The position numbers were made by a program, and so were the translations under genes. This document shows positions 15,404 to 62,757 of a stretch of DNA of 64,000 nt, one piece after another. Location of the stretch: assembly GCA_947489665.1 (NCBI GenBank), contig CANLEH010000006.1:62001-126000 (forward strand). The letters are read 5' to 3'. The notes beneath the pieces were generated by a model. It did no database searches. It was not told the origin of the DNA and was given only the letters and a program-made list of their open reading frames with translations. The stretch's first letter is position 1. Each line of letters opens with the position of its first letter. This stretch comes from an uncultured Roseicyclus sp. Its GTDB lineage: Bacteria > Pseudomonadota > Alphaproteobacteria > Rhodobacterales > Rhodobacteraceae.

Positions 15404-15509
15404 TTGCAAACCCTTCTGCCCGAGCGTGTTTTGCGCAAGTCGAACGTGATCACAAGGCAAGCTCGCCAATGCCCCGTGTGCAAACCTGTCCGTCGTCATG
15501 GCCAAAGAG

Positions 15510-15530
15510 TTGACAGTGAAAGCCCTTTCA
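15510..15530 (+). promoter_or_regulatory. -35 element and LacI-type operator upstream of the regulator gene
   Basis: TTGACA at 15510-15515 is followed at once by TGAAAG-CC-CTTTCA (15517-15530), a perfect 14-base inverted repeat resembling operators of LacI/GalR proteins. It would sit in the spacer of the regulator's own promoter, suggesting autoregulation. No clear -10 is seen. Confidence 0.5.
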
Positions 15531-15566
15531 TTAAGCAGAACAGATGCTTTTGACCACGTGCAGCCC

Positions 15567-16595
15567 ATGACCAAAGACGCCAAATCCGCGCCAACATTGG
15601 AAGATGTTGCCCGGCTCGCCTCGGTCTCGACGGCGACGGTGTCGCGGAGTTTGAACTTTCCCGAATTGGTGTCCGACCGCACCCGCGAGCGGGTCCAATC
15701 CGCTGTCGATACCTTGGGCTATTCCCCGAATTTCGGCGCGCGCGCCATGGCCTCACAACGCACGCGCACCATTGGGGCAATCATTCCAACGATGGAGAAT
15801 GCCGTGTTCGCGCAAGGCATTCAGGCCTTTCAGGAGGAGCTGGACGACCATGGTTATACGCTTCTCGTCGCAAGTTCGGCCTACCGGACGGATCTGGAGG
15901 AAAAGCAAATCCGGTCGCTGATCGCACGCGGTGCCGATGCGCTGCTGTTGATCGGGTACCAACGTGCCCCTGCAATCACCGACTTCATCAAGGCCCGTAA
16001 CGTCCCGACCCTGATCACCTGGGCCTATGACGCTGCCAAAACGGACCCGAGCATCGGGTTCGACAATCGCCACGCCATGCGGCGCCTGACGGAGGAGGTC
16101 TTGCGCCAGGGCCATCGCCGCATCGCCTTGATTGCAGCAGAGACCGACACCAATGACCGTGTGGCAGAACGGGTTCGCGGGGTGTCAGAGGCGATCCAAC
16201 AGGCGGGACTTCCAGCGGATCATCTTGCGATCCACCGCACGCGCTATGGGATAGAGACCGGGGCAGCAGCATTTGAGGCCGTGATGCGGAGCCCCCAACG
16301 GCCCACAGCCGTCATGTGCGCTAATGACGTACTGGCTGTCGGGGCGGTCAAACAGGCCTCAAAAATGGGGCTGACCGTGCCAGGCGATGTTTCGGTTACA
16401 GGTTTTGATGACATTGAACTGGCGCAGGTCACGTCACCCGAAATCGCCACGGTTCGGGTCCCGCACCGCCAGATGGGGCGCCACGCGGCGCGCGCCCTGA
16501 TCGCTTTGTTGGAGGAGGGTGTGCCGCTGGAAAGCGAAAACCTGCATACCGAGCTTTGCCTCCGTGGGTCCCTTGGGCCTGCACCGAAGATTTAG
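15567..16595 (+). CDS. LacI/GalR-family transcriptional regulator
   Basis: 342-residue repressor. The N-terminal helix-turn-helix and hinge are TLEDVARLASVSTATVSRSL at about 9-28, followed by the periplasmic-binding-protein-like sugar sensor (TIGAIIPTMENAVFAQGIQ, TAVMCANDVLAVGA, VPGDVSVTGFDD). Closest in layout to gluconate-type (GntR) LacI regulators. The frame is open back to an ATG at 15498, but a -35 and a perfect LacI-like palindrome lie at 15510-15530, so I choose the ATG at 15567. It converges on the minus-strand operon with a four-base overlap at 16592. Target genes are not evident. Confidence 0.88.
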   Translation: MTKDAKSAPTLEDVARLASVSTATVSRSLNFPELVSDRTRERVQSAVDTLGYSPNFGARAMASQRTRTIGAIIPTMENAVFAQGIQAFQEELDDHGYTLLVASSAYRTDLEEKQIRSLIARGADALLLIGYQRAPAITDFIKARNVPTLITWAYDAAKTDPSIGFDNRHAMRRLTEEVLRQGHRRIALIAAETDTNDRVAERVRGVSEAIQQAGLPADHLAIHRTRYGIETGAAAFEAVMRSPQRPTAVMCANDVLAVGAVKQASKMGLTVPGDVSVTGFDDIELAQVTSPEIATVRVPHRQMGRHAARALIALLEEGVPLESENLHTELCLRGSLGPAPKI

Positions 16596-17338
16596 GCGGC
16601 CTGCCAATAAGTCAGGGCCTCTTGCGCGCTGGTCTGTTGAAACAGCACGGCGCCGTAGGTTCCGACGCGACCCACGAGCAAAACGCACGCCTCATCCGCA
16701 GGATCGCACGGGAATGCAAGCGCGCCGTCTGTTTCGAGCGTGGCCGCCAAAGGGCTTTCATCCGAGGTTGCCCGCGCCAGAATATCCGTGATCTCGGAGG
16801 CGCGCCGTTCAATGGCGTCCTCAGCTCCGGAAAGAGGGGCGATTTCATAGCCTTCCATCAAGAAGCTCGCTTCGATCTTCGCGGCGTGCTGGTTGGTGAA
16901 CGCCACTAATTGATGCGCCAAATCGGGCTGGACCGAACCGCTCTGATCTGTCCCGGTTTCTTCCATCAGACTTGTGGCAGCGATGCCAAGGCCCGTCCCA
17001 TCCATGCCGTCGCGAAGTGCAGTTTCGGAGATGGAAATAACGACATCGCCCGAAAGCGCTTCTTTCAACGTGTCGGCAACCAGCCCTTCATCGCCAGCGC
17101 CCAACGCAGCCCCCCAAGGTGCCGGCGCGCTGGCGTCGCCCGTCATGCGGTAGAGGCGACGATTGTGCACGAAAAGCGCCATCGTCGCCCCGCTCTCGAA
17201 GCGCAATTCGATGTGACGCGGCAGGACCGTTCGGTTCAGCCGCTCCAAAAGCGCACTTAAGTCAGGGACGGACGCAACCTGATCGCTGACGCAGGCCGCC
17301 GCGTTCAGAGTAGATCTGATGCGAGACAGGGCGCTCAT
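16592..17338 (-). CDS. unknown protein, last gene of GTPase/phosphosignalling operon
   Basis: Unrecognised 248-residue soluble protein. The N-terminal part (residues 25-70) looks like a small beta-rich unit (RHIELRFESGATMALFVHNR); the C-terminal part has DGALAFPCDPADEACVLLVG, reminiscent of the DGALAYPQE stretch in the preceding roadblock-like protein, so it may contain a divergent copy of that fold. No signal peptide or membrane span. Its start overlaps the preceding stop as ATGA, so it is translated with the GTPase genes upstream and probably acts with them. Confidence 0.7.
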   Translation of the reverse strand: MSALSRIRSTLNAAACVSDQVASVPDLSALLERLNRTVLPRHIELRFESGATMALFVHNRRLYRMTGDASAPAPWGAALGAGDEGLVADTLKEALSGDVVISISETALRDGMDGTGLGIAATSLMEETGTDQSGSVQPDLAHQLVAFTNQHAAKIEASFLMEGYEIAPLSGAEDAIERRASEITDILARATSDESPLAATLETDGALAFPCDPADEACVLLVGRVGTYGAVLFQQTSAQEALTYWQAA

Positions 17339-17688
17339 GCCGCAATCTCCGGAATTTCCATGGACCCAGCGAACCGGTGCATTCCGGCCAAGAGTTCAGC
17401 GATGTCCGCGTAAGGGTTGCACACGCATGTAAGCGCCACGCTTCCAAGCTGCGGCACTTTCTTGAATATGCGGGTCGCCTGCGGCGTTTGGAGGGCCACA
17501 TAATCCGTCGCCAAGCCGGCCATATCAAAGGCATCCCGGGTCAGCGCGCTGAGCGCATCGAGGTTTTCCTGCGGGTAGGCGAGTGCACCGTCTGCTGCCA
17601 GAACCGTGCCGGAGCGCAGGTCGCTGAGCATCAGAAGCACGCATTGGGGATGTGCGGCGCGATATGTGCGTAGTCCGTCAAAGTGCAT
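17335..17688 (-). CDS. roadblock/LC7-like small protein
   Basis: 117 residues, starting at the ATG at 17688 (the frame is open further up but would overlap the GTPase gene). The pattern of a hydrophobic strand, a turn with SDLRSGTVLAADGALAY, a long helix (NLDALSALTRDAFDM), then TPQATRIFKKVP and a closing SVALTCVCNPYADIAELL helix matches the alpha/beta plan of roadblock/LC7 (MglB-like) proteins, which bind GTPases. The assignment rests on pattern only. Position between a GTPase gene (11 bases upstream) and an overlapping gene downstream supports a GTPase-partner role. Confidence 0.6.
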   Translation of the reverse strand: MHFDGLRTYRAAHPQCVLLMLSDLRSGTVLAADGALAYPQENLDALSALTRDAFDMAGLATDYVALQTPQATRIFKKVPQLGSVALTCVCNPYADIAELLAGMHRFAGSMEIPEIAA

Positions 17689-17699
17689 TGCGATTCCAG

Positions 17700-18500
17700 T
17701 TAGATCAGCGCGTTTTGCGCGGTCCGTCGCCGGATCGTTCGCCCGGCTGACAGGGTTGTGACACGGCGAGGCGCAACAAGATCGGGGGTAGGCACCTTTG
17801 ATCGCATTGGCGCTTGTGGGGCAGGTCTTTCGGGCGCTTGGGCGATCTGCGGCACGGCGCATTCGATCAAGTCGTCCAGTGCAGAAACGATGGATGAGGG
17901 TCCGGTGCTGTGCGCACCATCGTCGGCCGTCAGCAGTGCGGCTGGGAGAACATGGCGGAACTGTCCCGCAACTTCATCGCGAACCCGCTTCAAGACGCGC
18001 GGTTGATCCTGCGCCCGAACTTTGTCGATCCGCGTCAACAGCAGCATCGACCGTTGCTGAAGCGTGGCCGGCACAAGGTCCCAGATCGCAGCTTCCGACT
18101 GCCGCCAGGCCTGAGTGGCCGGAGTGCACCAGATCGCAATATCCACGCCGGGCAGCAGCTGGTCCCACAAGTCCGGCGCCATGTTCGGATCGGAGCTTCC
18201 TGGCATATCGAGAAGGTCAATGCGCTCAAGGATTGGGGCGTCCAGGGGCACCTGGACGAACTTCGTGTCTTCGAGCGGCACCGAGGACCCGCTCCCCGCC
18301 GCCAAAGGCTCGGCCGTATCGTCGTCCAGAATGCGGACGGGGTCGCCGGTTCCGTATTGATACCAAAGGGGCGGCGTTTGTGTCGCGGTGACGCGCACCG
18401 GAGATTGCCTGCGCCCCAATAAAAGGTTCGCAAGGGTGCTTTTCCCGGCGGAGAATTCACCAAGCAGCGCCACGCATGGCCGTTTCTTCGTATTTGCCAT
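17700..18500 (-). CDS. dynamin/YjdA-type P-loop GTPase, short form
   Basis: 266-residue GTPase. G1 is GEFSAGKST at about 14-22, G3 is LLDMPGSSDP, and G4 is LLTRIDKV, so the GTP site is complete. The variable C-terminus is Pro/Arg-rich (RRVTTLSAGRTIRRRTAQN) with no membrane segment. Its start (ATG 18500) overlaps the preceding dynamin-like gene by one base (TGATG). The central segment IAIWCTPATQAWRQSEAAIW resembles EIAVWCTTAFSVADGRIW of the degenerate homologue two genes upstream. It probably works as a partner of the larger GTPase, as in paired bacterial dynamins. Confidence 0.82.
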   Translation of the reverse strand: MANTKKRPCVALLGEFSAGKSTLANLLLGRRQSPVRVTATQTPPLWYQYGTGDPVRILDDDTAEPLAAGSGSSVPLEDTKFVQVPLDAPILERIDLLDMPGSSDPNMAPDLWDQLLPGVDIAIWCTPATQAWRQSEAAIWDLVPATLQQRSMLLLTRIDKVRAQDQPRVLKRVRDEVAGQFRHVLPAALLTADDGAHSTGPSSIVSALDDLIECAVPQIAQAPERPAPQAPMRSKVPTPDLVAPRRVTTLSAGRTIRRRTAQNALI

Positions 18501-20584
18501 CACTTTGCTCTTCCTCGTTGGGGTGTTCCAAAATCCGCCAGAATGGCCTGGGCCGCGCCAAGGGCGTTGGATTGCTTCTCATCCGTTTGCGCTTGGTCCT
18601 GACGCAACTGGGCAAGGTCTGTGGTCCCGCGGCTTGCCAGGCCAAGGATCACCGCACGCTGCGCCGACAGGAATTCGTCAAGCATGTCGCGCACGGCCCT
18701 TGCATGGGGGGCCGCGTGGTCGGTCGACAGGGCAGCCACAACAGGCGCAATTTCCGCTTCGATCAACGATCTGAATTCGGCGGCATAGCTGTCATAGCTG
18801 CGGCGGCGGCGCCACCATCGGGTCCACCAGCTGCCCTTGATGTCGAGCGCGATGGTTTGCCCCAGCATCACAGGAACAGGTGGCTCTGGCACAGCAGGGG
18901 CTTCCAGGGTGAAGCCCGCATGGCTCAGGCCGAAGGTTGTCTCAAACAGGATCTCAAGATCGCGCGCGGCCTTCTGGAAAACGGCGTCCGCGGATTTATG
19001 CGACTTTCCGCAATAGACGTTGTAGCCCGATTTCAGCAGCAAACGCAGACCTGCCGGGTCATACGTCCACTCAACCTCTTCGCCATAGGTTTCCAAATGT
19101 CGGATCAACGAGGTGGTGCCGCGGGCGACAAACGCTTCCTGCGCTTTTCCCAGGCGCAGGTCGAGGTCGGCTGCCAGCGTCGAAAGTGAGCTCTCAAGGG
19201 CTGATTGCGCCTCGGCCGCGACCTTATCGATGGCTTGCGCCAATTCTGTTGGGTCAATCGAAGGAGTGGCGCGTTCGACGATGTGCTTTTCCTGCAAGGC
19301 GCGCTGTGCGGAAATGGCGCTGACCGTGTTTCGCGCGGCAGACGCGGTTCGGGCCAACGCATGTGCGCCATCGCTTGCGCAGATACGCTCCGCCATGGCC
19401 TGTCCAAGCGCTGGCAAGCCCGAGAGTGTCCAGATCAGCGATGCGGTGTTTTTCTCAAGCCCCGCTGTTTTGGCCTGATACCGCGCGAAGTTGAGCAGCG
19501 CCTCAGCGCTGTCGCGACCCATCTGAGCGAAGTCGCCGGACAGAGCGGCATTGGCCCAATGGGCGCTGCCAAACAGGATTTCCGCTTCGGCCGGAATGCT
19601 GAGCGATTTGAGCGTTTTCTCGATCGAGGCGCGGATTTCGGGAATGTCCCGCGCGGGATCTGCCAATTCATCCACACGGTTCACGAAAATCAAAACGTCA
19701 CGGGCCGGCACGTTCGCGATCAGCCGAACCAGCGCCAGATCCACATTCGAAAGCGCCTGATGAGCCGACAGGACAACGACACACAGGCGGCTGCCGCGAA
19801 TGGCATTCACAGTGATCTGCTCGCGGACCATGAAAGTGTCGTTCACACCGGGCGTGTCCCGAAGGCAAAGTGGCAAGGGCAGGGCAGGTTGCGACAGGTA
19901 CAGGTCAGCCGAGCGGGTGATATCGGCAAATCGTCCCTGGGACGGGTCCCCGTCACTCTCATCGCCCAGGCAGACATAACGTTGCAACAAGTCCGCATCG
20001 ACATAGCCATAATCGTGGGTCTGCCCGAGCAGCATCTCGAACTGCTCGCCCAATCGCGCACGGGCCGCAGCGCGCATTGTCTCAAGCTGTTTGCGGACCT
20101 TCTCAAGCTCCTGATCGGCTCCGGCGCGGCTGGCCAATTCGCCGACACGTCCGCCAGTGGTCAACAGGTTGGCCCATTCCGCATCCGTGAAGAAGCGGTA
20201 GCTGGATTTCTCCTGCACCTTGTTTCGGCGCGGCGAGAGATGGACGGATGTCACCACCGACGTCCACGGGTTGATGTCTGACGGAAGCAAGCCAACGGTG
20301 CCTGCCATTGCATTGGCGAGAGAGGTCTTTCCGGCCTTAACCTGGCCGATCAGGGTCACGGACGGCGTGAACGCACGGAGCTCGGCCCGCATGGCGCGCA
20401 CCTGATCGTTATGCGTGTCACCGCCCGCGACCTGCAGATGATCCAGCGCCTTTTCCAGCTTCTGTAGATCCCGGGCCAGCGGGGTGAGCCCGCGATAGGC
20501 GCGCGCCAAAAGGGCCTGGTCCGGTGGGGGTGTCTCGCAAGGCACACCCGGCTTGGCGCGGGGCAGGGCTGCATCATGTTTCAT
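18500..20584 (-). CDS. large dynamin-like GTPase
   Basis: 694-residue dynamin-superfamily protein. Residues 1-75 are helical; G1 is GQVKAGKTS at about 80-88, the switch threonine lies in INPWTSVVTSVHL, G3 is LRDTPGVND and G4 is FVNRVDEL. The rest is mostly helical (long Ala/Leu/Glu helices at about 370-480), with a basic aromatic patch SWWTRWWRRRRSYDSY near 590 that could contact membranes. Such proteins remodel or tether membranes after GTP-driven assembly. Start ATG 20584 overlaps the preceding stop as ATGA. Being coupled to a kinase, phosphatase and FHA protein is unusual for dynamins. Confidence 0.85.
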   Translation of the reverse strand: MKHDAALPRAKPGVPCETPPPDQALLARAYRGLTPLARDLQKLEKALDHLQVAGGDTHNDQVRAMRAELRAFTPSVTLIGQVKAGKTSLANAMAGTVGLLPSDINPWTSVVTSVHLSPRRNKVQEKSSYRFFTDAEWANLLTTGGRVGELASRAGADQELEKVRKQLETMRAAARARLGEQFEMLLGQTHDYGYVDADLLQRYVCLGDESDGDPSQGRFADITRSADLYLSQPALPLPLCLRDTPGVNDTFMVREQITVNAIRGSRLCVVVLSAHQALSNVDLALVRLIANVPARDVLIFVNRVDELADPARDIPEIRASIEKTLKSLSIPAEAEILFGSAHWANAALSGDFAQMGRDSAEALLNFARYQAKTAGLEKNTASLIWTLSGLPALGQAMAERICASDGAHALARTASAARNTVSAISAQRALQEKHIVERATPSIDPTELAQAIDKVAAEAQSALESSLSTLAADLDLRLGKAQEAFVARGTTSLIRHLETYGEEVEWTYDPAGLRLLLKSGYNVYCGKSHKSADAVFQKAARDLEILFETTFGLSHAGFTLEAPAVPEPPVPVMLGQTIALDIKGSWWTRWWRRRRSYDSYAAEFRSLIEAEIAPVVAALSTDHAAPHARAVRDMLDEFLSAQRAVILGLASRGTTDLAQLRQDQAQTDEKQSNALGAAQAILADFGTPQRGRAK

Positions 20585-21738
20585 GCCGCCATACCTCGCC
20601 CAAGTCTGCACTGATCAAATGCGCCACGCATCTGGTGCAAGAGCGCTGCCGCGTCTTCAACCTGGTCCGGCCCCGCCTCCATTTGCAGCAGCAGGAGAAG
20701 GTCGGTGGCTTCATCAATCATGTCGGCGAGTGCGGTGAATTCCGCCAGATCATCGGGCCAACCGCTGGACCGATCCCGCAGGCCATCAGCCGTTTCCGCG
20801 CAATGGATCAGCGCGGTTTCTGGCCAATTCGTTTCTGTTTCGGGGTCGATCCACGCTAGGTCTTCTGCCAGCGCTCGCGATCTGCGTGCCAGAAAAAGCG
20901 TGGGCTCGGACAACACTTCGCGCAAGCGCGCAAGCTGTCCTGAACTGCGCTGTGGTTCTCGTGGGGCATCGTAAGTGACTGGTTCTTCGGGGTCGGCCGT
21001 ATATCCAAGCCGGTGCAACAGCAGGTAAGCGGCGTCCAGGTCCGCCATGCGCGCTTCATCGATGTCGTCGCGCAACCGCGTCAGAAGCGGGGCGATTTCG
21101 CCGGGCAAGGGCAGGTGCACATGGTCAGTGAACTCAGAGGCTGCAACAGCGTCAGGCCCGGCTGTGTCAGGGGCCGTTTCAACCAGATAGGCGCGGTGTG
21201 TGAGCCGCTCGGGCGCATTCCCCCAGATCCGGCCATCGGCGACGGAAAAGGCCGTCGTGCACCAGACCGCGATTTCAGTGCGCCGCGCAGCCCATGCAAG
21301 GGCGGGGCGGTGCATCGCGGGGTTCAGATCCAGTGATAGGGCCAGAAAGGGCATGTGTTTGAGGGGCTCTGACGGCGCGGTCACACGCAGAAACACCGGG
21401 GCTTCCGACAGAAGCGCGGCATCAGGCCAGCCGTCCTGGGCAAGGTGTGAACCATCCTCCAAGGTTGCATGGGTCTGAATACGGTCGCCGAACTGCATCT
21501 CCAGCGCTGGCGGAAGGGCGACGCCATCGGGCGCAATGTCGCTGCCGCACACAGCGTAGAGAATGGTGCGCATGTCGCTGTCCCATTGACCCATCAGGCA
21601 GACGCGAACGGGCCGCTTGAGCGTTTCGATCAAATGCGCACAACGCTCCGCATCCCGTTGCGGAATGCGGGCAGACGCCAAGAGCGCTTCCAGCTTCGCG
21701 ACGGTCTCACTTGGTTCTGGCGCAAGGGCCTTCATCAT
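20581..21738 (-). CDS. degenerate GTPase-like protein lacking a P-loop
   Basis: 385 residues. At residues 44-58 RVCLMGQWDSDMRTI occupies the place of a P-loop but lacks the GKS/T, and ALSLDLNPAMHRP replaces the DxxG loop; no (N/T)KxD is seen. Yet EIAVWCTTAFSVADGRIW matches DIAIWCTPATQAWRQSEAAI of the intact GTPase at 17700-18500, so it is best read as an inactive GTPase relative. The C-terminal half (about 220-385) is helical. The start at 21738 overlaps the PP2C stop (TGATG). It may act as a scaffold or regulator of the two active GTPases (inference). Confidence 0.7.
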   Translation of the reverse strand: MMKALAPEPSETVAKLEALLASARIPQRDAERCAHLIETLKRPVRVCLMGQWDSDMRTILYAVCGSDIAPDGVALPPALEMQFGDRIQTHATLEDGSHLAQDGWPDAALLSEAPVFLRVTAPSEPLKHMPFLALSLDLNPAMHRPALAWAARRTEIAVWCTTAFSVADGRIWGNAPERLTHRAYLVETAPDTAGPDAVAASEFTDHVHLPLPGEIAPLLTRLRDDIDEARMADLDAAYLLLHRLGYTADPEEPVTYDAPREPQRSSGQLARLREVLSEPTLFLARRSRALAEDLAWIDPETETNWPETALIHCAETADGLRDRSSGWPDDLAEFTALADMIDEATDLLLLLQMEAGPDQVEDAAALLHQMRGAFDQCRLGRGMAA

Positions 21739-22622
21739 CACCCCCGCGGTTCAATTGAAATCGCTGGCGCAACCGCGCGCCGCATGGCTTTGAACATGGC
21801 GCTGGGGGCATGACGCAAGCTGCTGTGGCGTTCGGCGCGCTTGCGGCGCACCGGGCGAATGACGACCAGCGATGTGTTGTCCTGTTCGGGATCGTTCAAG
21901 GTCGTCAACGCCTCAAGAAGATCGTTGGCGATCACGCGACTTTGCTCATTCCGCGCGCGCAAAAGCAGCGCTTCGATGATCGGATCGGGCAAGAATTGAA
22001 GGCCGTCACTTGCGAGGACGAGGATGTCGCCCGCGCGCACTTCTAGCGGGGCGTCGGGGCAGTCAATCTCGGCCACCGCGTCGCCGGTCAGGGCTGAGGT
22101 CAGGCAATTGCGCTGCGGGTGCGCGGCGGCCTCAGCTTCGGTCATAGCGCCGTTTGCGGCCAGTAGGTCCAGTTGCGGGGCCATCGAATGGTCCGCGTTG
22201 AGGCGGGAAAGCTTTTCATCACGGAACAGATAGAGGACGGAATCCCCGACCGAGACCCAGTGCAGATCGCACCCGGACAGGTGCGTGGCAATGACAGTGC
22301 CCCCCATGCCGGAATGATCCGGGCGCGCGGCCGTCACGGCCTTGAGGCCCGCATTTGCCTTTTCCACGGCGCCGCGCAAGGCGTCAGGCGGCGCGGATTG
22401 GCGGGCACTTTCCTTCAGGGTCAGCGCGGCAAAAACCTCGGTCACGATGGCGCGGCTGGCCAGGTCACCGGAGGCATGTCCGCCCATGCCATCCGACAGA
22501 ATGGCAAACCCATCCGGTGCGCCTTGCGGGAACGACACGGCCACCGCGTCTTCCTGTCGGGACCGCGCGCCTTGCGCGAGGGCAGAGGTGACATCAAACT
22601 CGAATTCCGATTGGTCAGTCAT
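21738..22622 (-). CDS. PP2C-family serine/threonine phosphatase
   Basis: Metal-dependent protein phosphatase, 294 residues, cytoplasmic. Canonical motifs: ARSRQEDAVAV (motif 1, metal Asp in a QED form), LSDGMGGHASGDLASRAIV (motif 2), VSVGDSVLYLFRD, VLASDGLQFLPDP and DNTSLVVIRP. I choose the ATG at 22622 (MTDQSEFEFD), overlapping the FHA gene stop by eight bases; the frame is open to 22844 but would run through FHA. It would reverse phosphorylation by the kinase two genes upstream. A longer paralogue is at 52230-54725, again next to an FHA gene. Confidence 0.9.
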   Translation of the reverse strand: MTDQSEFEFDVTSALAQGARSRQEDAVAVSFPQGAPDGFAILSDGMGGHASGDLASRAIVTEVFAALTLKESARQSAPPDALRGAVEKANAGLKAVTAARPDHSGMGGTVIATHLSGCDLHWVSVGDSVLYLFRDEKLSRLNADHSMAPQLDLLAANGAMTEAEAAAHPQRNCLTSALTGDAVAEIDCPDAPLEVRAGDILVLASDGLQFLPDPIIEALLLRARNEQSRVIANDLLEALTTLNDPEQDNTSLVVIRPVRRKRAERHSSLRHAPSAMFKAMRRAVAPAISIEPRG

Positions 22623-23310
22623 CGGCGTGCCCGTCCCACGTGAAATCAGGCCCGCAAAAGGCATGAAAGCGTAAAGTGGTTTTGCCGATGCGGATTTCGT
22701 CGCCATGCTCCATCTGTTCGGTGGCAAGGACCGGCATATCGTTGCGACGGACGGCATTGGCCTTGTTGCCGTGGCCAAGGAAGAACCGGTTTTGTTCAGC
22801 GTCGTACATGACCGAGGCATGGCCGGCGCGCGAGATGCTCTCATCGCCGAAGTTCATGCAAATGTCCTGATCTTCGCCGCGCCCGATGGATGACACGCGT
22901 GTTGTCACGGCGAAAAAGGCACCCCGTCCGGGGCCGTCCGTGACGACAAGAAAGCCTGCCGGATAGGTGGGCCCTTCTGACTGCGCGTCGGATGCGGGTT
23001 CAACCTCGGAAGTCGCGCCGAGAAATCCGATGACCCGCGTTTTGGCGCGATCGGTGGGCTGTGCGGGCGCAGGCGGCGGCGTTGACGGCACGGCACGCGC
23101 CGGGGCCGGTGCCTTTTCGGATGGGTCCGCTTCCAGATCCCAGATTTGACGGCGCTGATCCGTTTCCGGGCGACTGACGGCCACGCGCCGCGGTATTGCG
23201 GGCTGTGATACCGATCGCATGGCGTTTTCGCCTGTTTTCGGCGCGGATCCGTCAGCGCCCGCAGGAGGACGCATCCGAACGGCAACATTGCGCAATCTCT
23301 TGATACTCAT
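22615..23310 (-). CDS. FHA domain protein
   Basis: 231-residue adaptor. Residues 1-105 are disordered and rich in Pro, Ala and Arg (probably phosphorylatable); the FHA domain follows at about 117-225 with SSIGRGEDQDI, FGDESISRAGHASVMYD and the end RFHAFCGPDFTWDGHADD. FHA domains bind phosphothreonine, so it should dock on kinase-modified partners. The start overlaps the kinase stop as ATGA. The protein at 51565-52233 is its paralogue: same layout, PGRGA, FGD(D/E)(T/S)ISR and CGPDF shared. Confidence 0.85.
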   Translation of the reverse strand: MSIKRLRNVAVRMRPPAGADGSAPKTGENAMRSVSQPAIPRRVAVSRPETDQRRQIWDLEADPSEKAPAPARAVPSTPPPAPAQPTDRAKTRVIGFLGATSEVEPASDAQSEGPTYPAGFLVVTDGPGRGAFFAVTTRVSSIGRGEDQDICMNFGDESISRAGHASVMYDAEQNRFFLGHGNKANAVRRNDMPVLATEQMEHGDEIRIGKTTLRFHAFCGPDFTWDGHADD

Positions 23311-24641
23311 ACGATTTCCTCGGCTCGATCATCCCCGTTTGCCGTTTTGGCGTTGGGTTTTGGGGATTTTGCGAATAGGGAAAGCCAGCCCGAGCGTGTC
23401 GCGGCCTGATGGTCCGCCGCGTCCGTCTGCGGGGCTTCGGGCCGACGATACCTAAGCTGCATCTTTTCAATGGGCTGCAATTTCGGCTTGCGGGGCCGAT
23501 GCGGTTGCGTTGCTGGTGCTTCTGCTGGCGCCTCTGCGGTCAACTCCTCAAAGTCCGGTTCAGCTTGTACGATCCGCACTTCCGGTTTTGCCTGCACTGG
23601 GTTGGGTTGTTCCGGCGGCGGTTTTGGCGCGTCGGGCGCCTTCGGCGTGAAATCCCGAAAGAAGTCGCGCACAAGTTGCGACACCGTTTTGTCCAGGGTT
23701 TCGTCTTGCTCGGCCTTTTCCAGCAAACGCTTCTTGCGCCGCGTCTCGTCTATGGACGACAGCCAGGTATCCGCGTCGGGCAGACGGTCTTTTGGAAACA
23801 GGTTCAGGCATTGCCAAATGGCTGAGATGGAGGCGCGATCATACCCCTCGATGTCGGGCTGGTTTGGCAGCGGATCTGCGGCGTCACGTGCGGCTGCAGC
23901 CATCCGCACCTGGCTGCTTGGGGGCGCTTTGCCGGTCAGCAAGTGGAAAAAGGTCGCCGCTAGCGCATAAAGGTCGCTGGCATATGTCTGGTCGCTACCC
24001 GCGAGGTAGAATTCCTGGGGCGAGTAGCCGTCTTTGACAGTTTGCAGTTTCGACAGCACGCGACTGACGCGTGTCGCATCCTCGCGCGCAGCCCCAAAAT
24101 CGATCAAGACAGGCAGGTTCTCATCATCCACCAGAATATTGTCCGGCGAGATATCGCGATGCAGGATGTCGTTGCTGTGGATGTAGGCAAGTGCCTGCAG
24201 CAATTGGGACAGGAGGGTTTTCACTCGATCGGGCGTCAGGCGCCCAGGGTCGTTTTCGACGATGTCGAGGAGCGTGTGTCCCTCGACAAAATCCATCGCC
24301 ATATAGGCGGTCCCGTTGTCGCGAAAATACTGATGGACCCCAACGATATAAGGGTGTTGCAGCGTGGCGAGCGCGCGGGCTTCCTTTTCGAACAGCTCCA
24401 GAATGGCGTCAAATTCAACGGCGTTTCCTTGGCTTCTGACGCAGACCGTCTGATTTGACCGGAAGCACATAGCGCTGGGGAAGCATTCCTTGATCACCAC
24501 CCGACGCCCGAGGCTGTCGCAGGCCAGATAGGTCACTCCAAATCCGCCAGCGTTGAGGTAGCCCTCGATCGTGTACTGGCCGCCACACAAGGTGGCGCCG
24601 GGGGGCAGCTCATCTCCCTGATATGTGGGTTCGGGTTCCAT
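23307..24641 (-). CDS. serine/threonine protein kinase
   Basis: Hanks-type kinase, 444 residues. Kinase domain about 20-290: glycine loop NAGGFGVTYLA, ATP lysine in VVIKECFP, catalytic HRDISPDN, DFGAAR, and an activation segment ending YSPQEFY. The C-terminal 150 residues are Pro/Lys/Ala-rich, and no membrane span follows, so it is probably soluble. It shares the ELPPG...GGQY lead-in and IKECFP/VKECFP block with the large kinase at 59104-62652. The start (ATG 24641, MEPEPTYQGD) fits the beginning of homology; an in-frame ATG at 24713 is possible. First gene of the eight-gene operon. Confidence 0.9.
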   Translation of the reverse strand: MEPEPTYQGDELPPGATLCGGQYTIEGYLNAGGFGVTYLACDSLGRRVVIKECFPSAMCFRSNQTVCVRSQGNAVEFDAILELFEKEARALATLQHPYIVGVHQYFRDNGTAYMAMDFVEGHTLLDIVENDPGRLTPDRVKTLLSQLLQALAYIHSNDILHRDISPDNILVDDENLPVLIDFGAAREDATRVSRVLSKLQTVKDGYSPQEFYLAGSDQTYASDLYALAATFFHLLTGKAPPSSQVRMAAAARDAADPLPNQPDIEGYDRASISAIWQCLNLFPKDRLPDADTWLSSIDETRRKKRLLEKAEQDETLDKTVSQLVRDFFRDFTPKAPDAPKPPPEQPNPVQAKPEVRIVQAEPDFEELTAEAPAEAPATQPHRPRKPKLQPIEKMQLRYRRPEAPQTDAADHQAATRSGWLSLFAKSPKPNAKTANGDDRAEEIV

Positions 24642-25120: not shown

Positions 25121-25238
25121 ATCTCGATGGACCCGGATGCCGGACGACTTGTCTTCGCCTCTGCGGGCCCGTCGCTCGCCGGTTCTTGGGTGTCACCACC
25201 CTCGGGCCAAATCTCGAAGCGAAGAGGAGAGGAACATC

Positions 25239-25394
25239 ATGTCTGATGATCCGGATAAAGTCTGGCCCACGGGTCTGACCCTCAAAGAGGCGGAAGAGGT
25301 GCATAGCTACCTCATCGATGGCACGCGGGTGTTTGGGGGGATCGCTCTGGTCGCTCACTTCCTCGTGGCTGTTGCAACGCCTTGGCTGGGCTGA
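25239..25394 (+). CDS. pucB: light-harvesting LH2 beta subunit
   Basis: 51-residue antenna polypeptide of the peripheral LH2 complex in the photosynthetic membrane; binds bacteriochlorophyll and carotenoid. It has the beta-subunit pattern [20 protein letters not shown], one membrane helix at about 24-45, and two conserved histidines, H22 and H40 (the latter, in [17 protein letters not shown], ligates the ring bacteriochlorophyll). The ATG at 25239 is preceded by GAGGAGAGGAAC. First gene of pucBAC, controlled by the PpsR sites just upstream. Confidence 0.96.
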
Positions 25395-25409
25395 CGGGAG
25401 CAAGATCGC

Positions 25410-25772
25410 ATGAACAATTCAAAGATCTGGCTTGTTGTTAAGCCCACTGTCGGTATTCCGCTGTTTCTTTCAGCGGTCGCCGTCGGCTCGTTTGCGGTGC
25501 ACGTCGCCGTTGTCAGCAACACCACCTGGGTGTCTGATTTCCTGTCTGGACAGGAACTCGGCTCGGGCTCGGCGGCGCTGGAAACGGAAACGAATATCCT
25601 GCCCGCAAGTGCGGACGTCACACCTGACGCGCCAATGTATCTCGACGCCGCTGCCGATGATGGCATGACGGTAATCCTGCCCGATGGGCGGACAGCAAGG
25701 CTTGTCATCGAAGACCCGGTGACGCTGGCCTCCGCGAGGACATTGCTACCAACCGACACGGCGCTCGAATAA
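25410..25772 (+). CDS. pucA: light-harvesting LH2 alpha subunit with long C-terminal tail
   Basis: 120-residue LH2 alpha polypeptide. Residues 1-50 match the family (KIWLVVKPTVGIPLFLSAV, ligand H31, TTW at 38-40), with one membrane helix at about 12-36. The tuning pair at 44-45 is Phe-Leu, as in blue-shifted B800-820 antennae, where ordinary B850 proteins have Tyr44 with Tyr or Trp45. The tail of about 65 residues after SGQELG is far longer than the usual few residues; it is acidic and contains VILPDGRTARLVIEDP. It would lie on the periplasmic side. The gene starts 16 bases after pucB. Confidence 0.95.
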   Translation: MNNSKIWLVVKPTVGIPLFLSAVAVGSFAVHVAVVSNTTWVSDFLSGQELGSGSAALETETNILPASADVTPDAPMYLDAAADDGMTVILPDGRTARLVIEDPVTLASARTLLPTDTALE

Positions 25773-25787
25773 GCGCCTTGTTCTCCA

Positions 25788-25834
25788 CGACCGGGGGATA
25801 GAAGCGCGCGTCGCTTCTTGACCCGGCCCGGTCG
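25788..25834 (+). terminator. intercistronic hairpin between pucA and pucC
   Basis: Nested inverted repeats: outer arms CGACCGGG / CCCGGTCG (25788-25795, 25827-25834) and inner arms AGAAGCG / CGCTTCT (25800-25806, 25812-25818). No T run. In puc and puf operons such structures stabilise the antenna mRNA and reduce read-through, giving far more pucBA than pucC. Confidence 0.65.
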
Positions 25835-25873
25835 CCCGTCTTTTCCAGCGACCATCAGCAACGGGGCAGCCTT

Positions 25874-27265
25874 TTGAGCGGCATTCGTGACACTATTCTG
25901 CGCCGGATCACCCGGATCACGCCGCGCTATTTGCCGTTTGCCGATGTCGCCAGCGAAACGGCACCCTTGTCACGCTTGCTGCGCCTTTCTCTTTTTCAGG
26001 TTTCCGTGGGCATGGCCCTTGTTCTTCTGGTCGGTACGCTCAACCGCGTCATGATCGTCGAGCTTGGTGTGCCAGCCTCCCTTGTCGCGATCATGCTGGC
26101 CTTGCCGCTGATCTTTGCGCCGTTCCGTGCGCTCATCGGGTTCAAATCCGATCAACACCGATCCGCCCTTGGGTGGCGCCGTGTTCCTTACATCTGGAAG
26201 GGGACGATGCTGCAATTCGGTGGCTTCGCGATCATGCCCTTCGCGTTGCTCGTGCTGTCTGGCTACGACCAGGCCGCCGACGCCCCCTTGTGGATTGGCC
26301 GCGCTTCAGCCGCCCTGGCGTTTCTGCTGGTTGGGGCAGGGGTGCATACAGTGCAGACAGTTGGGCTCGCCCTCGCCACCGATCTTGTTCCTGTAGAAGA
26401 TCAGCCCAAGGTCGTGGGTCTGATGTATGTGATGCTTCTGGTCGGCATGATCCTCAGTGCGCTTGTGTTCGGCTATCTCCTGTCAGAATACACGCCGGGC
26501 CGTCTGGTTCAGGTTGTGCAAGGCGCCGCCGTCACCACCATCGCGCTCAACCTGCTGGCATTATGGAAACAGGAGCCGCGCGACCGCGCGCGCGCAGCCA
26601 ACCCGCCGCCGGTCGAGGCCTTCTCGGACGCATGGGCCGTTTTTTCAGCCCGCGAAGGGACGATGCGGCTGCTGATCGTGATCGCTCTTGGGACCATGGC
26701 CTACGGTATGGCCGAGGTCCTGCTGGAGCCCTATGGCGGTGAGGTCCTGTCGATGTCAGTCGCTATGACAACCCGCCTGACGGCTGTTCTTGCGGGCGGC
26801 GGCTTGATTGGCTTCTGGTTCGCCAGTCATGTGCTGCTGCGCGGGGCCGAGCCGTTGAATGTCGCAACCTTTGGGGCGGCCATCGGGGTGCCCGCCTTCA
26901 TCGCCATTGCCATCGCTGCACAGATGGGTGGCGTGGCCTTGTTCACTTTGGGCACGTTCATCTCGGGCGTCGGTGCGGGCCTGTTCGGCCACGGCACGCT
27001 GACGGCCACGATGCGCCGTGCGCCACGATCGCAAATTGGCCTCGCCCTGGGGGCCTGGGGCGCGGTGCAGGCGACCGCCGCGGGCATCGCCATTGCCGCC
27101 GGCGGCGTGATCCGCGACGTGATCCTTGCCCTGCCGGGAACCGCGCGTCCGGCCACGCCGTACATCCCGGTCTTCCTGCTTGAGGCTGTCTTCCTGGTGG
27201 CGGCTTTGTGCGTAATTTGGCGCCTACATGCACAGGCGCCTCGAAATTTGGGCGTTGAGCCCTAA
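25874..27265 (+). CDS. pucC: PucC, BCD-family major facilitator for LH2 assembly
   Basis: 463-residue, 12-helix membrane protein of the bacteriochlorophyll-delivery branch of the MFS, needed for LH2 assembly. Family blocks include LSLFQVSVGMALVLLVGTLN, MIVELGVPASLVA, PFRALIGFKSDQHRSALGWR and RVPYIWKGTMLQFGG. The start codon appears to be TTG at 25874 after GGGGCAG; an ATG start would remove part of the conserved N-terminus. Third gene of puc, separated from pucA by the hairpin. Confidence 0.92.
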   Translation: MSGIRDTILRRITRITPRYLPFADVASETAPLSRLLRLSLFQVSVGMALVLLVGTLNRVMIVELGVPASLVAIMLALPLIFAPFRALIGFKSDQHRSALGWRRVPYIWKGTMLQFGGFAIMPFALLVLSGYDQAADAPLWIGRASAALAFLLVGAGVHTVQTVGLALATDLVPVEDQPKVVGLMYVMLLVGMILSALVFGYLLSEYTPGRLVQVVQGAAVTTIALNLLALWKQEPRDRARAANPPPVEAFSDAWAVFSAREGTMRLLIVIALGTMAYGMAEVLLEPYGGEVLSMSVAMTTRLTAVLAGGGLIGFWFASHVLLRGAEPLNVATFGAAIGVPAFIAIAIAAQMGGVALFTLGTFISGVGAGLFGHGTLTATMRRAPRSQIGLALGAWGAVQATAAGIAIAAGGVIRDVILALPGTARPATPYIPVFLLEAVFLVAALCVIWRLHAQAPRNLGVEP

Positions 27266-51407: not shown

Positions 51408-51564
51408 AATGCCATGGGTCAGGTGGCAGGGATTTCCGCCACTCGCCTAAGGTGCCAAATTCCTTCACGTTTGCCGACAGTGTGTTACCAATTGGATCAC
51501 GCCCAAGAGCAAGACACATGGCGACGGACCGCAACCGGTCCTTCTTGCCAGTGAAAGGATGACT

Positions 51565-52233
51565 ATGGCCAAGAAACCCATCCTCACGGACGACGAACTG
51601 GATGGCGGTCTTCCGCCGCGCGCGGCGACGCCGCCGCCATTGCCCGGTGCAAGCTCCGGCGCGACGCGGCCGCTGGACGCCCCTGCGGCAGAGACAACGG
51701 GATCGGCCACGCGAATGGTGAATGATCCCGCCGCTGATGATGCGGCGCCGCCGCCGCCGCCTCCGCCTGCTGCGCAACAGCAAGGGCGCGATGCGTCCGG
51801 CCATGCACGGCCCAAAACGCGCATTCACGGTTATGGAAACGCCGCGCGCGCGGATGACGCGCCGTCTGAGGAGGGCGCGCCGATGGTGCAGCCCGTTGTC
51901 GGCTGGCTCGTCGTGACGAGCGGGCCGGGCCGGGGGGCTGCCGTGGGTTTGAGCGCCGGCATGAACGGCGTGGGCCGCGGGCCAGAGAACAGCGCGCAGG
52001 TCGATTTCGGCGATGACACGATCAGCCGCGAAGCCCATGCCTTTGTGACCTATGACAATGAAACGCGACTGTTCCACCTGAGCCATGGCGGCAAGACCAA
52101 TCTTGTTCGCCTGAACAACGCGCCGGTTCTGGCGGTGGAAACGCTGTCCCACGGGGACACGATCCGCATCGGGGCCACGGGGTTGCGCTTTGTCGCCCTT
52201 TGCGGACCTGATTTCGATTGGGCCGACGCATGA
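51565..52233 (+). CDS. FHA domain protein (paralogue of 22615-23310)
   Basis: 222-residue phosphothreonine-binding adaptor. Residues 1-105 are a Pro/Ala/Thr-rich disordered region (EDs with PPPPPPPAAQQQ), and the FHA domain is at about 115-215: GWLVVTSGPGRGAAVGLSAG, NGVGRGPENS, FGDDTISREAHAFVTYD and the end FVALCGPDFDWADA. The C-terminal CGPDF.W end and PGRGA block are shared with the other FHA protein. I choose the ATG at 51565, with an ATG six bases upstream also possible. PP2C overlaps its stop as ATGA. Confidence 0.87.
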   Translation: MAKKPILTDDELDGGLPPRAATPPPLPGASSGATRPLDAPAAETTGSATRMVNDPAADDAAPPPPPPPAAQQQGRDASGHARPKTRIHGYGNAARADDAPSEEGAPMVQPVVGWLVVTSGPGRGAAVGLSAGMNGVGRGPENSAQVDFGDDTISREAHAFVTYDNETRLFHLSHGGKTNLVRLNNAPVLAVETLSHGDTIRIGATGLRFVALCGPDFDWADA

Positions 52234-54725
52234 GCGCGGCGCAGGGCAGGGGCGGGGACAGCACCGACATCGCATATGATGTTGCGACCGCGCTCTGGCA
52301 GGGCAAGCGCCCCTATCAGGAAGACACGCTGCTTGCCGATTTCCACGGTGGCATGGATCGCGGATTTGCCGTGTTGGCCGATGGCATGGGCGGGCATGCG
52401 GCGGGGGATCTGGCCAGCCGCCTTGTGGTGATCGACGCGGTCAGTCACCTGAAATTCCTGATGCATGACGGCGCGGCGCTGGAACAAAGCCTGCAGTCCG
52501 AGCTGACGTCGGCCATCGAGACGGCCAATGAGGTTCTGAAGGATCGCGCGGCGGACGACCGGCGCTTGCAGGGCATGGGGGCCACTTTTCTGGCCACTGT
52601 CCTGTTCGAGGATCGCCTGTACTGGGCCTCGGTCGGGGACAGTCCCCTGTACCTTTGGCGTGAGGGCAAGCTGAAGCAACTCAACGAAGATCATTCGATG
52701 GCGCCGATCATCGACCAGATGGCGAAATCGGGCGAATTGACAGAAGAGGAGGCGGCCAACCATCCCGATCGCAATGCGCTGACCTCGGTCCTGATGGGGC
52801 GCAGTGTGAAATCGATGGACGTGCCCAAGACGGCCACGGTGCTTGATCCGGGCGATGTGCTGATCCAGGCCTCGGATGGTCTGCAATACCTCGACGAACG
52901 CGAGATTGTGACTGTGCTGGAAGGCCTTGGCACTGATGCCAGCAGCCGCGAGATTGCGGATGCGTTGATGCAGGCGCTGTTTGATCTGGACGATCCGGCG
53001 CAGGACAACACGGCGATCATGGTGCTGCAACTGACCCAGGGCATGGGCGGCGGCGGTGGTGTGGCGGCCGCAACGGCGACGGCCGATGGCGAGCGCGCCG
53101 TGGCCGGTGCGACGGCGGCGGCCACGGCAACCAGCGGGGGGGCTGCCACGGCCAGTGCCAGCCCGGTGCCACCGGCGGAGCCGGACCCGCCGGAAAAGCG
53201 ACGAAACATGCTGGTGCCTGCGGCCCTTCTCGGCGGGGCGGCACTGGCACTTGGGCTGATTTTCGGCCTGCCGAGCGAGCAAGACACGACCACACCCACG
53301 GCTGACGAAGCGCCGGTGGCGGAAGGTGAGGTGCGTGTTCCAGATGACACTCAACCCAGTGATGAGGCGACCTCTGCCGAGGTTGATCCGGTCGAAGAGA
53401 CGGATCCTGCCCCAGCCGCTGAAGACGACCCGGTGCCGGACATCGCGGCGGATGACGATGCTGCGACCGAAGTAGCCGGAGAAGAGAGCGCGCCAGAGGC
53501 CAGCCCGGATGCAGAGGCCCCGGCTACAGAGGCGCCCGAAGATTTGGCACCAGCCGAGGAGGTAGCGCCGCAGGTGCCCGCCCCGGCTGAAGAAGTGGCT
53601 GCTGAAGAAGTCGTCGCCGAAGAGGTGCCTGCCGAGGACGTGGCCGATCCGGATGCGGAAAGCGCCACGCCAGCCGTCGACGCGGACGCGGGCAGTGAAG
53701 TTGAAGCTGAGGCCGAAGCCGCGCCCGTGGAAACGCCTGAAATCACACAAGAACCGGCACTCGAAGAAACTGCTCCGCCTGCAGATGAGGCGACCGCCGT
53801 GGAAGCGCCCGCGCTTGATGAGCCCGAATTGGGCACCGATGGTGCCGCGCCCGCTGAAGAGATCACACCCGTCGAAACCGATCAGCCAGAGCCGCCGCAG
53901 CCTGTGCGGGACGCCGATATGCCGGATGGCGATGCGCCCGCCGGGGCCGCCGCGGATCGCAGTGACCCGGGCGCAGAAGTCCAGCCCGCAACCGTTCCAT
54001 CGGATACCAGCGGGTCAGAGGTTGTTCCCGTTCCAGGTGCCACGACTGCGCCGACGGTCGGGGGTGCGCAGACCGGGTCTTCGCAAGGGGCCAGCTTGGG
54101 GCAGGTTCTGCCGCCCGCTGATACAGAGATCGCCCCGGAAGTTGCAGACGAGGCCCCAGCCGTTGAGCCTCAGCCTCAGCCTCAGCCTGTCCCGGTTCCG
54201 GTACCAATTCCCTCTCCCACGCCCACGCCCACGCCTGTTCCGGCTCCCGCGCCTTCTCCGACACCCGCGCCGAGCCAGACGCCGCAGCCTGCACCTGCTG
54301 CACCCACTCCCCTCCCTCAAGGCGGTGAAGAGCCCGCAGCCAGTGCCGTACCCGGCGTTGGAACGTTGCGCGAAGGGCTAAGTGCGCCATCTGGGGCCGA
54401 TGATGCCGCCGTGACCCCGGCGCCAGAACCGGTGCCCTCGCCGCAGCCGGTCCCGCTTGCGCCGCAAAACGTGCCGCGTGCGCCTGTTGAGGTGGCACCT
54501 ACGGCCCCGCAGATCGGTGAGGATGATCGCGCGACCCAGATGGCCCCGCGCAATCCATCGGCGCCCTTGATCGTTCCGGGCGATGGGGCGGAGGAGGGGG
54601 CCAGCGTGCTGCCCATGTTGCCGCCTTTCACGGGCAGCATTCAAAGAATTTGCCAAGCACAGCAATGCTTTGCCATCATTCGGCAGCCGGATGGTACGGT
54701 GACCATCCTGCAACGCCGCAGATAA
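52230..54725 (+). CDS. membrane-anchored PP2C phosphatase with long acidic tail
   Basis: 831 residues. Phosphatase domain about 15-270: KRPYQEDTLLADF, LADGMGGHAAGDLASRLVV, ASVGDSPLYLWREG, QASDGLQYLDE and DNTAIMVLQL. One membrane segment at about 327-347 (MLVPAALLGGAALALGLIFG) puts the rest outside the cytoplasm: about 450 residues of Glu/Ala/Pro/Val repeats (PQPQPQPVPVPVPIPSP type) and a short folded end with ICQAQQCFAII. It reverses the kinase reaction and may sense the envelope through its tail. Coupled to the FHA gene. Confidence 0.88.
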   Translation: MSAAQGRGGDSTDIAYDVATALWQGKRPYQEDTLLADFHGGMDRGFAVLADGMGGHAAGDLASRLVVIDAVSHLKFLMHDGAALEQSLQSELTSAIETANEVLKDRAADDRRLQGMGATFLATVLFEDRLYWASVGDSPLYLWREGKLKQLNEDHSMAPIIDQMAKSGELTEEEAANHPDRNALTSVLMGRSVKSMDVPKTATVLDPGDVLIQASDGLQYLDEREIVTVLEGLGTDASSREIADALMQALFDLDDPAQDNTAIMVLQLTQGMGGGGGVAAATATADGERAVAGATAAATATSGGAATASASPVPPAEPDPPEKRRNMLVPAALLGGAALALGLIFGLPSEQDTTTPTADEAPVAEGEVRVPDDTQPSDEATSAEVDPVEETDPAPAAEDDPVPDIAADDDAATEVAGEESAPEASPDAEAPATEAPEDLAPAEEVAPQVPAPAEEVAAEEVVAEEVPAEDVADPDAESATPAVDADAGSEVEAEAEAAPVETPEITQEPALEETAPPADEATAVEAPALDEPELGTDGAAPAEEITPVETDQPEPPQPVRDADMPDGDAPAGAAADRSDPGAEVQPATVPSDTSGSEVVPVPGATTAPTVGGAQTGSSQGASLGQVLPPADTEIAPEVADEAPAVEPQPQPQPVPVPVPIPSPTPTPTPVPAPAPSPTPAPSQTPQPAPAAPTPLPQGGEEPAASAVPGVGTLREGLSAPSGADDAAVTPAPEPVPSPQPVPLAPQNVPRAPVEVAPTAPQIGEDDRATQMAPRNPSAPLIVPGDGAEEGASVLPMLPPFTGSIQRICQAQQCFAIIRQPDGTVTILQRRR

Positions 54726-54767
54726 CAGACCACACCGAAAACACCGACCACGGGGACAGAGATCAAG

Positions 54768-55631
54768 ATGACCGACGATGTGGAGCTTTCAATTCGGCAG
54801 GTGACTGGCGGCACTGTCCTGCTGGCGACCGAGACCTTGCGTCTGCCGGTCGAGATCGGGCGTTTCGGCGCAGACAATGTGGGCCGGGTCAGCGCGGGCG
54901 ATGGGCGTGTGGTGCATTTCGGGGAAGGATACGGCACCCTGTCGCGCCAGCACCTGACCATCACGCCGTCCGGGGATGGCGGGCTTGTCGTGACCGACCT
55001 GTCGTCCAATGGTGTGGCCCAGATCGGGCAGGAGGGGTCTGCCCCCGTGCCCATGGGGCGCGGCGGCACGGTGCGTATGGCGCCCGGTGCGATGCGCGCG
55101 TTTGAGACGGTGGGTCTTCGCGTGACGGTCTGTTCGCCCAAGGAAGCGCAGGTGGATGCCATCGGTCAGCCGCTACATCTGGTCTATGACAGCACCTCTA
55201 CCGGCGGGCTCAAGGCGCTTGATCTAGATGGTGTATCGATTGCGTTGGTGGCCAATGGCGCGGAAGTCCTGATGCGCCGGCGCAAGGGGCGCGCGGCGCA
55301 AGCGCTTGAGGCCGCCAAGGCCGAGGGCGCGCGCGTTCTGGTGATGATCGGCCCTGACGGTGCCGGTGGGGTGGAGGCCATTTGTGGCATGGGCGGCGAA
55401 GTGGAGCATAACCGCCGCACCCTTGACGAGGGCGAAGCGGTGCAGATGGATCACCTCGCCACGCTTGATATCCGCGGCCAGCTTCTGCGGATCATGTCGG
55501 CGGAAGAAGGCAAGGGGCTGAGTTGCACGAACCCTGATTGCCGCCAGCTGAACCCATACCTTCCGGGCGAAAATTGCCGGTATTGCGGGCAACGGCTTGG
55601 GGATGGAACATCATACTGGGTGCATTCGTAA
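54768..55631 (+). CDS. FHA domain protein with C-terminal zinc ribbon
   Basis: 287 residues. An FHA domain at about 20-105 (GRFGADNVGR, GEGYGTLSRQHLTI, VVTDLSSNGVAQIG), a middle domain at about 120-240 of unknown type (TGGLKALDLDGVSIALVANG), and a zinc ribbon at the end: CTNPDCRQLNPYLPGENC followed by RYCGQR (CxxxxC ... CxxC). Start ATG 54768, 42 bases after the PP2C stop. Zinc ribbons in this position often mediate protein contacts. Part of the same transcript as the FHA-oxidoreductase gene ten bases downstream. Confidence 0.82.
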   Translation: MTDDVELSIRQVTGGTVLLATETLRLPVEIGRFGADNVGRVSAGDGRVVHFGEGYGTLSRQHLTITPSGDGGLVVTDLSSNGVAQIGQEGSAPVPMGRGGTVRMAPGAMRAFETVGLRVTVCSPKEAQVDAIGQPLHLVYDSTSTGGLKALDLDGVSIALVANGAEVLMRRRKGRAAQALEAAKAEGARVLVMIGPDGAGGVEAICGMGGEVEHNRRTLDEGEAVQMDHLATLDIRGQLLRIMSAEEGKGLSCTNPDCRQLNPYLPGENCRYCGQRLGDGTSYWVHS

Positions 55632-55640
55632 GGGGCTGAT

Positions 55641-57650: not shown

Positions 57651-57665
57651 GCGAGGAGCGAACCC

Positions 57666-62652: not shown

Positions 62653-62757
62653 GGCTGAAGGCACAATTGCGCGCGCGCATCCGCCTGTAAACGCATGTTT
62701 TCCGTATCGTACGTGCAGGGCTTGCAATCTTGTCTCTGCTGCGACACGTCAAGCGCG

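Follow-up and report, generated by a model that had tools for sequence, protein, structure and literature searches.

What would a bacterium gain from encoding a kinase, an FHA protein and a phosphatase in one operon with dynamin-like GTPases and a roadblock-like protein? The question is raised by an eight-gene block from an uncultured Roseicyclus sp. (assembly GCA_947489665.1), which lies in a stretch of 64,000 nucleotides from contig CANLEH010000006.1 (positions 62,001 to 126,000 of the forward strand). This whole stretch is referred to here as the window, and its own numbering is used throughout. The block is a genuine, conserved system that we found only in the window's family, Rhodobacteraceae. 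At its core is a dynamin pair of a known kind, and the regulatory set attached to it is undescribed among the matches listed in our literature searches. We consider that the block probably encodes a phosphorylation-gated machine, akin to bacterial dynamin pairs, that remodels or tethers membranes.

A conserved eight-gene block

The eight frames run from 24641 to 16592 on the minus strand in the order KIN-FHA-PPM-PSG-DYN-SGT-RBL-UNK. KIN is the kinase, PPM the PP2C protein, PSG a relative of GTPases named for its missing P-loop, DYN the large dynamin-like protein, SGT the small GTPase, RBL the roadblock-like protein and UNK the last frame. An initial annotation, made from the sequence alone, had described eight genes on one strand with mostly overlapping stop and start codons, and this description held. 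With the starts that we chose, six of the seven junctions overlap, by 8 bp at FHA/PPM and by 4 bp at KIN/FHA, PPM/PSG (GTG start), PSG/DYN, DYN/SGT (GTG start) and RBL/UNK; the remaining junction, SGT/RBL, is an 11 bp gap. The assigned kinase, FHA and PP2C identities were each confirmed by Pfam families above cut-off (Pkinase, 1.5e-31; FHA, 9.4e-6; PP2C_2, 5.3e-8). Dynamin_N was likewise above cut-off for DYN (4.2e-11) and SGT (1.2e-9), and no Pfam family exceeded cut-off for the window's PSG, RBL or UNK.

An operon-type DYN profile matched 506 relatives in named genomes, and gene order was followed through the best 80, all Rhodobacterales by record titles; being picked as the best, these 80 named loci are a favorable sample. 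Profile models for each gene recovered the complete block, in order, in 67 of them. Contig ends truncate the remaining 13, whose visible genes keep the order. DYN is followed by SGT in 80/80. Flanking genes differ between loci, the commonest flanking cluster occurring in 8/80, and the block is therefore sharply bounded. The order that the initial annotation had suggested following across Rhodobacteraceae is thus kept, and its proposal of a single unit comprising the kinase, FHA, PP2C and GTPase genes stands, as does its view of the GTPases as working together.

DYN was present in 48 of 198 family genomes (49 before a weak match, G143, was dropped). These genomes were sampled one per genus yet are related, so the samples are not independent and the p-values are indicative. 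UNK accompanied DYN in 42/48 genomes and was present in 0/150 genomes without DYN (p 6.5e-37; 43 before fragment G178 was dropped). The FHA subfamily, searched with the window's second FHA protein (51559–52233), a query that can miss distant members, was found in 38/48 and 3/150, respectively (p 7e-28; total reduced from 43 to 41 by dropping G088 and G192). The initial annotation had held that GTPase genes mostly lacking the trio would speak against a joint system; at genome level the two were mostly found together.

At order level, DYN occurred in 97 of 292 genomes (101 before G179, G272, G407 and G437 were dropped), all belonging to the window's family among the matches listed. Draws from the class (289) and phylum (249), which included some family members, gave no long DYN match outside the family, and matches beyond it were fragments of at most 33 bits. 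Six of eight own-genome or same-genus genomes carried DYN among the matches listed. A DYN relative is borne by 18 plasmid records, with plasmid copies in Leisingera, Ruegeria and Rhodobacter. The block is whole on a Leisingera plasmid (L198), where the annotation calls RBL, UNK and PSG hypothetical and we assigned them by position; Leisingera aquaemixtae is one laboratory roseobacter with the block. Mean column identity was 25% for UNK, 26% for PSG, 31% for RBL and 36% for SGT, with 53% for DYN calculated from a different set. DYN matches in four genomes (G430, G206, G365 and G244) have one or two internal TGA codons, indicating possible decay or sequencing errors.

The initial annotation knew of no described system with all of these parts. 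Literature searches, with subscription journals mostly outside their coverage, agreed in giving no account of the eight-gene combination among the matches listed. One paper retrieved for the block, PMC7016017, concerns calcium stores instead, judging by the part available.

Dynamin-type G domains, a roadblock-fold protein and UNK

The large dynamin-like GTPase of the initial annotation, DYN (18500–20584, minus strand; 694 amino acids), was corroborated by its profile, for which the nearest solved structure is 5owv_A (5.6e-12). The best solved match is 5owv_C for both the SGT profile (3.6e-19) and the PSG profile (3.1e-9). According to the accessible part of its report, 5owv is the Campylobacter jejuni dynamin-like pair Cj-DLP1/Cj-DLP2, which forms a 2:2 assembly, binds lipid and tethers liposomes; bacterial dynamin genes are there described as mostly paired in operons (PMC6104087). 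We assigned the 5owv chains to DLP1 and DLP2 from length and order. Judged by these profiles, DYN, SGT and PSG are all dynamin relatives. The G1, G3 and G4 core residues of DYN are invariant in 31 rows. Trp586, Trp587 and Trp590 are likewise invariant (31/31) and belong to the motif SWWTRWWRRRR (within residues 585–600; 18785–18832, minus strand), a Trp/Arg-rich stretch that we infer to be a candidate membrane contact.

Residue counts for the other proteins were taken after length filters from the 80 named loci and the window, giving 61 KIN, 64 FHA, 77 PPM, 78 SGT and 66 PSG sequences. SGT (17700–18503, minus strand; 267 amino acids) retains the P-loop Gly/Lys/Ser/Thr and the G3/G4 Asp in 78/78. 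Its designation as a small GTPase was right as to the intact GTPase motifs and wrong as to the kind of protein: SGT consists of a dynamin-type G domain plus a short tail and, because its best solved match is one chain of the 5owv pair, would be a reduced dynamin partner.

PSG (20581–21741, minus strand) combines a dynamin-type G domain with a C-terminal domain and is homologous to SGT over the G domain (profile-profile probability 99.8, E 2.8e-28). It had been described as a P-loop-less GTPase relative. This is accurate for the window copy and does not extend to the gene as a whole: the P-loop is intact in 43/66 sequences (Silicimonas is one such lineage), keeps GK and loses Ser/Thr in 9/66 and is eroded in 14/66. 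Intact and lost states imply at least three changes on the DYN tree. Losses would be more numerous if irreversible, because one intact row (L130) nests among lost ones. The alignments thus point to stepwise loss of the PSG P-loop in part of the lineages, a natural series in which a GTPase appears to become a pseudo-GTPase inside one conserved operon. Since the gene is retained where the P-loop is lost, nucleotide binding seems dispensable in some lineages, which would fit an adaptor.

The roadblock-like identification of RBL (17335–17688, minus strand; 117 amino acids) proved right by fold and not by sequence family. Its AlphaFold2 model (predicted local distance difference test, pLDDT, 93.1) has the helix, two strands, helix, three strands, helix arrangement of roadblock/LC7 proteins. 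Foldseek ranked roadblock proteins, MglB and Ragulator subunits highest (E 1.4e-6 to 1e-5). At the sequence level, the roadblock family was missing among 12 weak Pfam matches of 40 RBL members, and no PDB sequence matched up to E 10. On its predicted structure, RBL is a roadblock/LC7-fold protein.

UNK (16592–17338, minus strand; 248 amino acids) had no Pfam family across 36 members. Its AlphaFold2 model (pLDDT 86.6; predicted template modeling score 0.63) gave Rag complex chains as best Foldseek matches (E 2e-3, none below 1e-3), with a template modeling score of about 0.3 of the whole chain; phytochrome and Mon1-Ccz1 chains were also listed. Residues 141–248 are collinear with RBL 3–106 in a weak profile match (hhalign E 0.02, probability 2.4). 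The C-terminal half is possibly a second roadblock-like domain.

A phosphorylation trio and its modules

KIN (23307–24641, minus strand; 444 amino acids) is a Hanks-type Ser/Thr kinase with a poorly conserved C-terminal tail. Lys51, Asp163 and Asn168, which we take to be its catalytic residues, are each present in 60/61 sequences, with one gap. In PPM (21738–22622, minus strand; 294 amino acids), Asp44, Asp206, Asp248 and Asn249, presumably the metal-binding residues, are present in 77/77. The FHA protein (22615–23310, minus strand) comprises a poorly conserved N-terminus, a KTR-x-x-GF motif and a C-terminal FHA domain (~124–216), in which Arg144 and Ser160, the assumed phosphothreonine pocket, are conserved in 64/64.

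Thr91 of the KTR-x-x-GF motif, ahead of the FHA domain (KTRVIGF, codons 90–96; 23023–23043, minus strand), is invariant in 64/64 sequences. The runners-up among columns up to residue 115 reached 19/64 for Thr, 15/64 for Ser and 21/64 for Ser and Thr combined. The motif was also found in 31/35 FHA frames of the L031–L085 set, drawn partly from the same genomes and including one contig fragment among its four misses, and in 10/14 FHA frames from extra loci and the window's second trio. We take Thr91 as the probable phosphate acceptor, on the model of OdhI and GarA, and it is likely the switch site. A switch acting on the GTPases, which we infer as the initial annotation did, is given a concrete form by this threonine.

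Partial arrangements also occur. By our own reading of the maps, 55 stretches around DYN matches of the 198 family genomes divide into 26 complete and in order, 7 cut by contig ends yet consistent, 1 without a detected kinase (L058) and 21 otherwise arranged, 12 of which hold only DYN- and SGT-type genes. KIN-FHA-PPM-PSG occurs without DYN in the 19.5-kb stretches L216 and L217. L222 has FHA, PPM and PSG and, at the end of the stretch, the edge of a kinase-like frame (48 bits); some 12 kb separate this group from an RBL-UNK pair. This genome, G003, keeps all modules at three places, two in L222 and DYN-SGT elsewhere (L062). As L216, L217 and L222 combine the trio with PSG and have no DYN close by, PSG appears tied to the switch. 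A Ruegeria plasmid (L199) carries two DYN/dynamin pairs, two hypothetical genes at the RBL-UNK position and then kinase, FHA and PP2C genes. Among relatives, no ATG or GTG start was seen between positions −60 and +80 relative to the stop at PSG/DYN in 42/80 and at SGT/RBL in 33/78; these wide gaps coincide with the module borders.

Lower-scoring DYN relatives (L066, L072–L083), some in tandem, are paired with SGT-type genes, and the trio was not detected in these stretches. More distant FHA/PP2C/kinase clusters (L218, L224) have no KTR motif. The window also holds a second, paralogous kinase/FHA/PP2C cluster at 51559–62655. It comprises an FHA gene (51559–52233, plus strand), a PP2C gene with a long tail (52233–54725, plus), a further FHA protein gene (55641–57650, plus), a gene for a 161-amino-acid protein (57666–58151, plus) and a gene for a kinase of 1183 amino acids (59104–62655, minus). 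Identity to the operon is 47% for FHA, 45% for PP2C and 46% for the kinase, and the FHA motif is common to both; membrane segments and a coiled coil were spotted by eye only.

At the 3' end of the block, a LacI-type gene (15498–16595) is convergent with it and overlaps by 4 bp. An antenna gene and a pucC-type gene (25137–27265) lie divergently about 500 bp upstream, and an antenna gene adjoins the block in L086 too. A promoter and terminator scan was set aside (3 promoter-like sites versus 1.4 expected; 7 terminator-like versus 8.3 expected). tRNA-linked integration was considered and rejected: 13 tRNA genes lie in 59/80 named loci, and no pattern was seen. A mobile-element explanation gained no support from the 25 of 85 neighbor families listed, which contained neither integrase nor transposase.

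Proposed mechanism, alternatives and known systems

A phosphorylation-gated dynamin machine is favored because the block is complete in 67/80 loci, with the rest cut and the flanks unshared, and because the best solved relatives of DYN, SGT and PSG are the two chains of 5owv. It is further supported by the homology of PSG and SGT and the contrast between their P-loops, the RBL fold, the co-occurrence of UNK and FHA with DYN, the PSG-trio loci and the invariant Thr91. DYN would be the Cj-DLP1-like partner, touching the membrane via its Trp/Arg-rich stretch. SGT would be a stripped-down Cj-DLP2-like G domain that pairs with DYN and drives the GTP cycle. PSG would be a second such G domain, with nucleotide no longer needed in several lineages, and could with its C-terminal domain act as an adaptor linking the GTPases to the switch. 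RBL, perhaps with UNK, may form a roadblock platform for SGT, binding or stimulating it in the way that MglB acts on MglA. The kinase would phosphorylate Thr91 and the PP2C protein would remove the phosphate, which may determine whether the FHA domain engages its own tail or a partner, so that assembly occurs only on signal. A response to envelope damage is our guess at the physiological role.

Several points weigh against this reading. At 267 amino acids, SGT is too short to contain the Cj-DLP2 neck and trunk, and its match to 5owv_C stops near profile position 230 of 299; DYN is long enough for both. The DYN-SGT pair can exist without the switch, since 12/55 stretches hold DYN- and SGT-type genes only and 10/48 DYN genomes have no FHA subfamily member (in 3 of these the DYN contig is under 9 kb). 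Conversely, the trio stands without neighboring GTPase genes, PSG included, in L219, L220, L221 and L225. Thr91 may belong to a docking motif instead of being a phosphosite, and the fold evidence for a roadblock domain in UNK is weak.

Three other accounts were weighed. An anti-phage or other conflict system, with a kinase switched on by infection or damage and dynamins that seal or rupture the membrane, would fit the patchy occurrence of DYN, its plasmid copies and the poor conservation of UNK, PSG and RBL. There is also precedent in DynA of B. subtilis, which in the accessible part of its report limits lysis by phage (PMC8844932). KIN resembles the PD-T4-6 and mad6 models; such models, however, match many Hanks kinases. 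Its mad6 equivalog score is 139.3 against a cut-off of 460 and PADLOC sets no cut-off for PD-T4-6, and we do not assign the block to MADS or PD-T4-6. The neighborhood, which the initial annotation had thought possibly defense related, does not support a defense island: 133 immediate neighbors gave only single matches to mad2, mad3 and mad8 in PADLOC at 1e-10, a count made with no control set. These were taken with a crude open-frame picker from 74 loci with a block of at least 7 kb (136 in all, 3 dropped for X or more than 900 amino acids). We regard a conflict system as unlikely.

The separation of modules in L062, L222, L216, L217 and L219 and the wider gaps at module borders could instead mean that a general kinase/FHA/PP2C module merely adjoins a separate dynamin/roadblock module. 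This sits poorly with the order kept in every uncut named locus between unshared flanks, with the FHA-DYN association across genomes and with G003, which retains all three modules though dispersed, and we give it a rather small chance. We see least reason to favor an organizer of the cell envelope or photosynthetic membrane. The window block adjoins an antenna and a pucC-type gene, and six loci (L109, L114, L118, L119, L133 and L163) have an mreB-type gene downstream in the same orientation, yet neighbors vary from locus to locus. Reaction-centre genes (Photo_RC) were found in 25/48 DYN genomes versus 59/150 others (p=0.13), which does not support a link to phototrophy.

The gated dynamin machine that we prefer shares parts with several known systems. 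The type VI secretion system (T6SS) proteins PpkA, PppA and Fha are a kinase, PP2C and FHA trio, and the initial annotation had pointed to this system and to TerY-type systems. The gene types agree; a T6SS link did not survive, as the window genome has no VipB, VipB occurs in 14/48 DYN genomes versus 30/150 others (p=0.23), the TagH model scores 14.3 bits against 120 and no T6SS family is among the 25 neighbor families listed. A TerY triad fared no better, since Pfam detected no VWA domain in any of the eight proteins. OdhI and GarA are phosphothreonine FHA switches, and the block FHA protein is similar in its conserved N-terminal-tail Thr, with kinase and PP2C alongside; it scores only 32.9 bits against an OdhI model cut-off of 200. 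MglA/MglB is a small GTPase and roadblock pair in which MglB stimulates or binds MglA. Here too a roadblock-fold gene is next to a GTPase gene and MglB is among the RBL matches, whereas the GTPase is dynamin-type and RBL matches no roadblock family by sequence.

The Cj-DLP1/Cj-DLP2 pair is likewise encoded side by side, with DYN resembling chain A, SGT and PSG resembling chain C, and G motifs in both DYN and SGT. The block differs in that neck and trunk are not found in both partners, SGT having only a short tail beyond its G domain, and in its additional, partly dead third G domain. It also differs in that a phosphorylation trio and a roadblock protein share the operon. To our knowledge the activation and purpose of bacterial dynamins are largely open, and we know of no other bacterial dynamin under Ser/Thr-kinase and roadblock control, so that this would be the first. 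Somewhat more tentatively, the block may be a bacterial equivalent of the signal-gated membrane machinery of eukaryotes, in which a one-threonine switch controls a heterotypic dynamin complex on a roadblock platform and a third G domain is turning into a pseudo-GTPase adaptor. The block adds to such a dynamin pair a full circuit of kinase, FHA protein and phosphatase as well as a roadblock-fold protein, and its invariant threonine offers a single-residue test.

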